Shown here: piece by piece, positions 19,057 to 21,563 of the stretch
Position numbering within the stretch: position 1 is the first letter of the stretch
Layout: each line of letters opens with the position of its first letter
Assembly (NCBI GenBank): GCA_034003325.1
Contig: JAVEYW010000006.1
Location: 192,362 to 256,361, forward strand
DNA: 64,000 bases
From: Desulfobacterales bacterium
GTDB lineage: Bacteria > Desulfobacterota > Desulfobacteria > Desulfobacterales > JAFDDL01
Reading direction: 5' to 3'
The notes under the pieces: generated by a model
Told to the model about the DNA's origin: nothing
Databases searched by the model: none
Seen by the model: only the letters and a program-made list of their open reading frames with translations
Position numbers and translations under genes: made by a program

Positions 19057-19584
19057 ATGAGAGATAACACGAACAGTGAGTGCCAGCGGTTACGGGAATT
19101 CGTAGTAGGCGATCTTGCGGTATACCCGGCCCATGGTGTCGGTCGAATCAATGCCATAGAAAGCAAGGTAGTCAATGGGGAAACGCATGATTTTTATATC
19201 ATGAAGATTATCGAAAACGGTATGGTGATCATGATCCCCACGAGCAATGTGGAATCGGTCGGACTCAGGGACGTTATCAAAGCGGAGGATATCCCAAAAG
19301 TTTATGAAATAATGAAAGAAAACAGGGATAGCCCCATCGACAATCAGACCTGGAACCGGCGCTATCGGGAGTATATGGAAAAGATAAAAACCGGATGTTT
19401 GAATGACGTTGCTGAAGTGTTTAGGGATTTATATCTGCTGAAATTAAATAAGGATCTTTCCTTTGGTGAGCGCAAGCTTTATGATACGGCGCAAGGACTG
19501 CTTATTCGGGAGCTGTCCACGGCCAAAAATTCAGATGAAGCGACCATATTAAAAGAGATAGAATCCCTATTTGCCTCCGAATAA
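19057..19584 (+). CDS. CarD-family transcription regulator
   Basis: 175 residues with the CarD/TRCF RNA-polymerase-interaction domain at the N-terminus (VVGDLAVYPAHGVGRI..., about 13-75) and a helical C-terminal DNA-binding domain. CarD proteins bind the RNAP beta subunit and stabilise open promoter complexes. The gene sits after the hppA terminator, so it has its own promoter. The next gene starts 16 bp downstream. Deltaproteobacteria often carry CarD here. The target promoters are unknown. Confidence 0.88.
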   Translation: MRDNTNSECQRLREFVVGDLAVYPAHGVGRINAIESKVVNGETHDFYIMKIIENGMVIMIPTSNVESVGLRDVIKAEDIPKVYEIMKENRDSPIDNQTWNRRYREYMEKIKTGCLNDVAEVFRDLYLLKLNKDLSFGERKLYDTAQGLLIRELSTAKNSDEATILKEIESLFASE

Positions 19585-19600
19585 CCTTCCTTTTCCCCCT

Positions 19601-20608
19601 ATGGACAGATGCAGCAGGGCCTTTGAATTTACCATTGAAGCGCCCGATGAGGGAAAACGCCTTGACCTTCTGATTTGTGCGCATGCGCCCGGTTGTGCGA
19701 GGACGCTTTCTGCTAAGCTAATTCGTTCGGGAAGCGTGCATGTCGACGGCCATGTTAAAAAGGCCGGTTATCGGGTTCGAATGGGCGAAAAGGTCAGCGG
19801 CATTATTCCGCTGCCCGTGCCGGCGAGTTTTGAGCCTGAGCCGATCGCGTTGAGCGTTCTATATGAAGATACGACGATTATTGTCATCAACAAGCAGCCG
19901 GGTATAGTGGTGCATCCGGCGCCCGGACATCGAAACGGAACGCTTGTCAACGCCATTTTGCACCACTGCCCTGGGATTGAGGCCATTGGCGGAGAAATCA
20001 GGCCCGGTATCGTTCACCGGTTGGACAGGGATACTTCCGGCACCTTGGTCATTGCGAAAAATGCGGTTGCCATGAAACATCTCGCGGATCAATTCAGGGA
20101 CAGGCATGTTCAAAAGGAATATCTGGCCTTGGTGTGGGGGTGTGTTGCCCGCGATTGCGGTACGATATCTTTACCCATCGGGCGTCATCCGGTGGATCGA
20201 AAACGGATGAGCACGGTCAGTCGCAAAACGCGAATCGCCGAGACCCACTGGCAAGTCGAATCGCGGTTTGATCAGGTGAGCCTGTTGCGGGTTCGGATTC
20301 GAACCGGTCGGACTCACCAGATTCGTGTGCATTGTGCCGCGATGCACCATCCGGTTATCGGAGATTCTGTCTATGGTGGCCGGAATTTAGGCGCCAAATA
20401 CCCCCCGGCGTCGCCCGCCGTTCGTGCGGCCATTGAAAGCATCGGCCGACAGATGCTGCATGCCTGGCGGCTCGGCTTTACACATCCTGTCAGCGGAAAA
20501 GAAATGATGTTTGAATCCCCCTTGCCTTCGGACATGACCTTTTTGCTTGAAACCCTGCGGTCTACGCCCGATCCGGCTAAGCTGTTAACACACAGTGAAA
20601 AGATGTAA
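19601..20608 (+). CDS. 23S rRNA pseudouridine synthase, RluD type
   Basis: 335 residues: an N-terminal S4 RNA-binding domain (RLDLLICAH...LIRSGSVHVDG) and a catalytic PseudoU synthase domain with GIVHRLDRDTSGTLV carrying the catalytic Asp. RTGRTHQIRVH is also present. The enzyme converts uridines to pseudouridine, probably in 23S rRNA helix 69 if it is a true RluD. RluC or RluA-like specificity cannot be excluded. The ATG at MDRCSR was taken over a TTG 30 bp earlier that overlaps carD. It is followed within 4 bp by a UGA-containing small ORF. Confidence 0.88.
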   Translation: MDRCSRAFEFTIEAPDEGKRLDLLICAHAPGCARTLSAKLIRSGSVHVDGHVKKAGYRVRMGEKVSGIIPLPVPASFEPEPIALSVLYEDTTIIVINKQPGIVVHPAPGHRNGTLVNAILHHCPGIEAIGGEIRPGIVHRLDRDTSGTLVIAKNAVAMKHLADQFRDRHVQKEYLALVWGCVARDCGTISLPIGRHPVDRKRMSTVSRKTRIAETHWQVESRFDQVSLLRVRIRTGRTHQIRVHCAAMHHPVIGDSVYGGRNLGAKYPPASPAVRAAIESIGRQMLHAWRLGFTHPVSGKEMMFESPLPSDMTFLLETLRSTPDPAKLLTHSEKM

Positions 20609-20611
20609 AAA

Positions 20612-20794
20612 ATGAATTTATCAAAAATTAACTGCCCGGATTGCGGCGGAAAGCTTTATGTAAAATTGACCTGAAAGCGGGTAAAGCTTTGCTGCAGGTC
20701 CTGCGGCGCAATGCACGACATTGAAAAGTTTGCTGATCTTCTGGATGAAATTTGGGAAACAGCCTTGGCCAATTTTCCCTGTGATCGGCTTTGA
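20612..20794 (+). CDS. Predicted small selenoprotein with dual CXXC motifs (UGA read as selenocysteine)
   Basis: A 60-codon frame with one internal TGA (codon 21, 20672-20674) that otherwise runs to a TGA at 20794. Before the internal TGA: MNLSKINCPDCGGKLYVKLT. After it comes CCRSC and then DLLDEIWETALANFPCDRL. The two CXXC pairs flank the TGA and read as one zinc-ribbon-like domain, so a simple stop is unlikely. A SECIS-like hairpin lies at the right distance. I recall a family of dual-CXXC small (seleno)proteins in Deltaproteobacteria that fits. The ORF fills an otherwise empty 196-bp gap between an RluD-type gene and truA. A pseudogene or sequencing error at the TGA is the alternative. Function is unknown, probably redox or metal related. 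Confidence 0.75.
20689..20711 (+). promoter_or_regulatory. SECIS-like hairpin downstream of the in-frame UGA
   Basis: TTGC/GCAA and TGCAG/CTGCG pair with a two-base bulge. The apical loop is GTC, with its G 24 nt after the UGA. Bacterial SECIS elements need a short apical loop beginning with G at about 16-37 nt from the UGA, so this fits. It lies inside the coding frame, as in bacteria generally. Confidence 0.65.
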
Positions 20795-20804
20795 TCTTTT
20801 TGCC

Positions 20805-21563
20805 ATGACGGAATCCCGGAAAAATTTTAAGCTGCTGATCGAGTATGACGGCAGTGCCTATCATGGGTGGCAGCGGCAGCAGAAGGATGAGAGCATTCAA
20901 GCTACCATCGAAGCGGCCCTTCACCGGCTGACCGGATCGAGGATATCTCTCATCGGCTCAGGGAGAACGGATGCGGGGGTTCACGCCAAAGGACAGGTCG
21001 CCAATTTTTTTTGCGAAACTCATCTTTGTGCGAACACGGTTTGTCGTGGATTAAATGCTTTATTGCCGGATGATATTGCCATTCTCGCATGTACGGTGGT
21101 GGATGAAAGTTTCCATGCCCGATTTGACGCGAAAGCCAAAACTTACCGTTATACCATTATCAACCGGTTTTCTCCGGTTGCCGTCGGGCGGCAGTACGCT
21201 TGGCATATTCCACAGGATTTGGATGCGGCGGCTATGAAATCCGCGATGCAACATCTCATCGGACGACACGATTTCAAGGCATTTGAAGGCACCGGTAGTC
21301 CCAGGGCGCATACCACAAGACATATGCTGAATGCGGTGTTGCAAGTGGATGCGCAACTTTCAAGGCTTAATTTTTACTTTACGGCCGATGGCTTTTTAAG
21401 ACACATGGTGAGAAACATTGTGGGCACGCTGGTGGAAGTCGGAAGGAGAAAAATCGAACCGACCACTGTTGCTGTCATTCGGGATGCTGCGGACCGTTCC
21501 CTGGCCGGTGCAACCGCGCCCGGCCAGGGGTTATGTCTGATGAACGTTTGTTATGACAAGTAA
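20805..21563 (+). CDS. truA: tRNA pseudouridine(38-40) synthase
   Basis: 252 residues beginning MTESRKNFKLLIEYDG. The catalytic Asp is in GSGRTDAGVHAKGQVANF. YHGWQRQ, the KTYRYTI strand and RHMVRNIVGTLVEVG are also typical. It modifies the anticodon stem of many tRNAs. A longer frame starting 84 bp upstream overlaps the selenoprotein ORF and is not conserved, so it was rejected. The gene starts 10 bp after the selenoprotein stop, suggesting one transcript. Confidence 0.95.
   Translation: MTESRKNFKLLIEYDGSAYHGWQRQQKDESIQATIEAALHRLTGSRISLIGSGRTDAGVHAKGQVANFFCETHLCANTVCRGLNALLPDDIAILACTVVDESFHARFDAKAKTYRYTIINRFSPVAVGRQYAWHIPQDLDAAAMKSAMQHLIGRHDFKAFEGTGSPRAHTTRHMLNAVLQVDAQLSRLNFYFTADGFLRHMVRNIVGTLVEVGRRKIEPTTVAVIRDAADRSLAGATAPGQGLCLMNVCYDK

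Follow-up and report, generated by a model that had tools for sequence, protein, structure and literature searches.

A very probable selenoprotein gene of the NF041197 / OS_HP3 family, with a SECIS-like hairpin whose apex is formed by the codons of its second CXXC motif, between an RluA-family gene and truA in a Desulfobacterales bacterium

The window analysed here is a stretch of 64,000 nt from a Desulfobacterales bacterium (assembly GCA_034003325.1, contig JAVEYW010000006.1, positions 192,362 to 256,361). The part of it that concerns us holds the following features, all on the forward strand:

19571–20608, + strand: flanking gene of an RluA-family pseudouridine synthase (RluD-like), TIGR00005 match
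20612–20794, + strand: very probable selenoprotein gene, NF041197 / OS_HP3 family, 60 codons (20612–20791) plus a TGA stop (20792–20794)
20633–20644, + strand: codons of the first CXXC motif (CPDC)
20672–20674, + strand: in-frame TGA, codon 21, inferred Sec; the residue at this site was compared in 117 genes
20691–20707, + strand: bSECIS-like hairpin, arms 20691–20697 and 20701–20707, GUC loop 20698–20700
20693–20704, + strand: codons TGC AGG TCC TGC of the second CXXC motif (CRSC), which also form the SECIS loop and the upper part of its stem
20805–21563, + strand: flanking gene truA, TIGR00071 match

The gene starts with the ATG at 20612 and, with U for the in-frame TGA, translates as MNLSKINCPDCGGKLYVKLTUKRVKLCCRSCGAMHDIEKFADLLDEIWETALANFPCDRL, in which the putative Sec site lies between two CXXC motifs, CPDC before it and CRSC after it. 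Upstream, the RluA-family gene (TIGR00005 273.4 bits, above cut-off; RluD model 256.8 bits, below its cut-off of 351) stops with TAA at 20606–20608, and 3 nt separate it from the ATG; downstream, the ATG of truA (TIGR00071 196.5 bits, cut-off 142.85) lies at 20805, 10 nt 3' of the selenoprotein stop. The selenoprotein gene therefore fills the gap between its neighbors, as the original prediction from the DNA letters had proposed. The prediction of a 60-codon gene with an in-frame UGA between two CXXC motifs likewise agrees with the coordinates, the translation and the profile score given below.

The predicted protein matches the NCBIfam model NF041197, "dual CXXC motif small (seleno)protein", with 70.6 bits (cut-off 40) over profile positions 1–53 of 53, and replacing the TGA residue by X still leaves 62.5 bits. 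The likeness to dual-CXXC small (seleno)proteins that the prediction had put forward is thereby borne out; the novelty that the prediction implied is not, since NF041197 / OS_HP3 is already catalogued. PMC13188914 equates NF041197 with the hypothetical protein OS_HP3, citing Zhang and Gladyshev 2007, and enters it a second time as "hypothetical protein DW" with the Sec motif GxU, a name that comes from the deep-Sep paper (PMC12013277); PMC9312934 has OS_HP3 too, under the accession that PMC13188914 assigns to DW. The review table in PMC13188914 gives the Sec motif of OS_HP3 as RxU, whereas the window gene has LTU. Hypothetical protein DW shares with the window gene a Sec or Cys site flanked on either side by a CXXC motif. 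OS_HP3 is still listed as hypothetical in both PMC13188914 and PMC9312934, and the window gene is an additional member of this already known small bacterial selenoprotein family, whose function is hypothetical in the catalogues. According to PMC12013277, the sole known selenoprotein gene missed in the deep-Sep test was an OS_HP3, from Desulfosarcina widdelii; the present analysis confirms an easily overlooked gene. A Pfam search of the window protein gave none over the cut-offs among the 13 matches listed, and tblastn against plasmids gave no match to the selenoprotein gene. If the TGA were an ordinary stop, the locus would encode a 20-residue peptide or be a pseudogene, with the downstream frame a relic; this is countered by the fit of the residues after the TGA to NF041197 up to the end of the profile.

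NF041197 scores over its cut-off in 88 of 395 genomes of a phylum sample and in 173 of 291 of an order sample (112 and 187 genomes, respectively, at E <= 0.001), and in the order sample most among the matches listed carry one TGA. The homolog set comprised 119 loci plus the window, drawn from the 30 and 29 best matches of the phylum and order searches and from 60 hand-picked loci, 20 of which lie below the NF041197 cut-off. A second profile, built from 52 of the examined loci, recovered the gene in 117 of 120; it was not recovered in L141, L145 and L148, all of them below-cut-off picks. The TGA-site codon in these 117 genes, including the window's, is TGA (U) in 85, Cys in 31 and Trp in one, with the proviso that the searches read TGA as Cys, which biases the outcome toward U or Cys. 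The original prediction proposed a search for homologs with Cys or U at position 21 and took an unrelated residue there as evidence against itself; the 85 U and 31 Cys homologs are of the first kind, and the one Trp belongs to a copy without the first Cys. With 70.6 bits against a curated model (62.5 when the site is X) and a TGA retained in many genera, the gene lies far beyond chance, and the recurrence of the TGA, with Cys as the alternative, again speaks against an ordinary stop.

At 50 bits or more by the 52-locus profile, 70 genes have U, 29 have C and one has W at the site, and below 50 bits there are 15 with U and two with C. Fifteen of these 17 weaker homologs have G-x-U/C and are probably, judging by this motif, of the hypothetical protein DW type; they are without the C-terminal CDRL part that the window gene has. 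In an alignment of the window protein with 36 chosen loci the four Cys residues of the CXXC motifs and the U/C site are invariant (37 sequences). Of the 69 U homologs at 50 bits or more, 53 have the C-terminal Cys57.

A genome with TGA reassigned to a standard amino acid (a Trp or Gly code) would also translate the frame, and the homolog L081, with TGG at the site, could be taken as a hint of Trp. We consider this reading extremely improbable: TGA terminates 18 of the 47 long frames of the window and is thus not generally reassigned, the 117 homologs include 31 C, one W and no Gly, and the Trp copy itself lacks the first Cys of its first CXXC motif. This copy (L081:1501–1653) is the lone Trp case of the 117, and reflects either decay or an assembly error.

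Two further variants were seen among the homologs. Fourteen Cys homologs (L033–L039, L041–L044, L049, L051 and L130) terminate in I-I-Y or L-I-Y, not in CDRL; in the two loci of this type whose upstream genes were tested, these encode PyrE (L041) and a phosphoribosyltransferase-domain protein (L036). The homolog from the Olavius-associated Delta 1 MAG (L172:3998–4156) has an in-frame TAG five codons 5' of the TGA, and PylS is found in the Olavius Delta 1 genome at 337.5 bits, over cut-off; a single small protein may possibly contain Pyl as well as Sec here, or else the finding reflects an assembly error or decay.

The hairpin 3' of the codon-21 TGA has a 7-bp stem, a 3-nt GUC loop, a UGA-to-loop spacing of 23 nt and an energy of -10.8 kcal/mol. 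The Fig. 2 legend of PMC13188914 describes the bacterial SECIS by a loop of 3–9 nt, a stem of 4–16 bp, a G in the first two loop positions, a spacing of 16–37 nt and an MFE <= -7.5, and the window hairpin agrees with this model in every respect. A hairpin with a GTC loop had been predicted 24 nt after the UGA, inside the accepted SECIS spacing; hairpin and loop stand, the distance is corrected to 23 nt, and this value is indeed inside the accepted range, with the family showing constraint at the RNA level (below).

By itself the window hairpin is no better than chance, which is a point in favor of an ordinary stop, and the support for the hairpin is comparative. Of 2000 synonymous recodings of the window gene alone, 284 reached the strength of the hairpin at a spacing of 21–24 and 468 did so when every allowed spacing was counted; the 49-nt stretch that holds it has a fold z-score of -0.09. 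At a spacing of 21–24, a range picked after an initial SECIS run had been seen, the 70 U genes including the window's average -9.6 kcal/mol against -4.5 kcal/mol for their synonymous recodings, 65 of 70 lie below their own recoding mean (p 1.4e-12, overstated, as are all p values here, because the genes are related) and 37 are matched by at most 5 of 100 recodings. The 29 Cys genes at the same spacing average -3.7 against -2.5 kcal/mol, with 15 below their own mean (p 0.055) and three matched by at most 5 of 100 recodings; the difference between U and C genes has a p value of 1.2e-7. At any spacing the U genes average -11.3 against -7.5 kcal/mol (26 of 70 matched by at most 5 of 100 recodings) and the Cys genes -7.9 against -6.1 kcal/mol (4 of 29, p 0.004), a weak excess in the Cys genes from which it follows that part of the effect is due to coding sequence and codon use.

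The base pairing itself was compared in 51 U genes (the window's and those of L045–L110): of 459 pair cells 376 are paired, and the number falls to 118, 138, 146 and 229 when the stem is slid by -1, +1, +2 and -2, respectively. Pairs are exchanged as C-G/T-A and as G-C/A-T/T-A/C-G, and 50 of the 51 genes open the loop with a G. At the same stem positions 142 of 261 cells pair in the 29 Cys genes, and pairing is poorer in a set of 19 more distant U genes (117 of 171 cells). Where U genes have an Arg at the apex its codon is AGG in 35 of 39 cases, with 6.1 expected, an excess for which the Cys genes, having no Arg there, offer no control. On these comparisons a hairpin with G as its first loop base, about 23 nt 3' of the UGA, appears conserved at the RNA level across the family, and the codons of the second CXXC motif (TGC AGG TCC TGC in the window) double as the SECIS apex. 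Such a constraint is at odds with an ordinary stop. The SECIS of E. coli fdhF, represented by a stretch that E. coli records identify as fdhF, has UGCAGGUC at its apex like the window gene; the UGA-to-GGUC distance is 22 nt in the window gene and 18 in the fdhF query.

The genome encodes tRNA-Sec (74.4 bits; also found by ARAGORN), SelA (616.5 bits) and SelD (L019:1396–2451, 377.5 bits), the last with its own in-frame TGA in GAGUASK, which makes it a second probable selenoprotein gene of the genome. Neither the SelB profile nor a relative's protein as query revealed SelB in the 97.6% complete, 46-contig assembly, where the best match to the SelB profile is EF-Tu and another is LepA. The genome-level check suggested with the original prediction, for sel genes, is thus answered positively for selA, selC and selD and negatively, in this assembly, for selB. 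SelB is over the cut-off in 16 of the 18 genomes tested, the exceptions being this genome (G000) and G275, which is also without NF041197. The simplest reading would be that the missing SelB is an assembly gap. Its absence from the assembly counts on the side of an ordinary stop, and the presence of SelA, tRNA-Sec and a Sec-type SelD counts against it. We regard the ordinary stop as very improbable, and the gene of the window is in our view very likely a true selenoprotein gene, belonging to the known NF041197 / OS_HP3 family and with Sec decoded at its UGA. By analogy with established bacterial Sec decoding, SelB bound to the hairpin would deliver Sec-tRNA at the UGA.

An AlphaFold2 model (25 sequences; pLDDT 78.2, pTM 0.52) has strands at residues 14–19 and 24–28 with residue 21 in the turn between them, and a helix at 37–53; in this model of modest confidence Sec would lie at the tip of a zinc-ribbon-like hairpin. 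None of 301 Foldseek matches in the PDB has E <= 0.001 (best 0.048, ZifS), and the VIA fold comparison reaches at best Z 4.4 (rmsd 5.4 over 53, an RPB9-type chain), for which reasons we claim no fold membership. A sequence comparison with the PDB gave a best, weak E of 0.0016 (HypA). The RPB9 and RPC10 zinc ribbons share the CXXC-hairpin-CXXC layout with the window protein as weak matches, and HypA, in its zinc-binding stretch, and ZifS match it weakly as well.

If this model is right, the two CXXC pairs could hold a metal in a zinc-ribbon-like miniature, and the selenol at the hairpin tip between them could be the redox-reactive group. We tentatively favor a redox role for this small zinc-ribbon-like selenoprotein, at somewhat less than even chance, on the general chemistry of Sec; as guesses, the protein may act on a partner protein and the C-terminal Cys57 might be a resolving thiol. 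A different function, with Sec decoding equally accepted, would be that of a non-redox metal-binding ribbon in which Sec is an extra ligand or a metal sensor. The invariance of the four CXXC Cys residues and the Sec/Cys site in the 37-sequence alignment and the zinc-ribbon-like model, with RPB9/RPC10 ribbons and the zinc-binding stretch of HypA among the weak matches, agree with such a ribbon, but the model, in its secondary structure, puts residue 21 in the hairpin turn, away from the CXXC knuckles, and we consider this function rather unlikely.

Tblastn places truA (counted when on the same strand and within 2 kb) downstream of the gene in 42 of the 74 loci taken from the window's order and its relatives: 15 of 29 (L060–L088, flanks of at most 1.5 kb), 12 of 20 (L091–L110) and 15 of 25 (L151–L175). 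The three sets have some organisms in common, some of the flanks are truncated, and L162 and L170 carry names of groups other than Desulfobacterales. No truA was found in 67 loci among L022–L051 and L111–L150, including L045, L046 and L050 of the order. Two concrete handles on this hypothetical family are that CXXC codons overlap the SECIS apex and that linkage to truA recurs. A fuller scenario, in which a redox selenol on an RPB9-like ribbon acts on the RNA-modification or transcription machinery, is tied to truA in this group and has its Sec signal in its own CXXC codons, seems improbable to us.

Linkage to an RluD-type gene was considered as a family feature and rejected: when 141 other loci, some of them short-flanked, were searched by tblastn at E <= 1e-12 with the RluA-family protein of the window as query, no such gene turned up next to the homolog. 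Among 20 chosen neighbor proteins, six without an NCBIfam match at the threshold used and one without a Pfam match, no common functional neighborhood was found; those matched include PyrE, topoisomerase I, a DNA polymerase III gamma/tau-type protein and YcaO, and another is a D-Ala-D-Ala carboxypeptidase-like protein below the cut-offs of named models. In L131 and L143, DW-like Sec homologs lie downstream of topoisomerase I genes.
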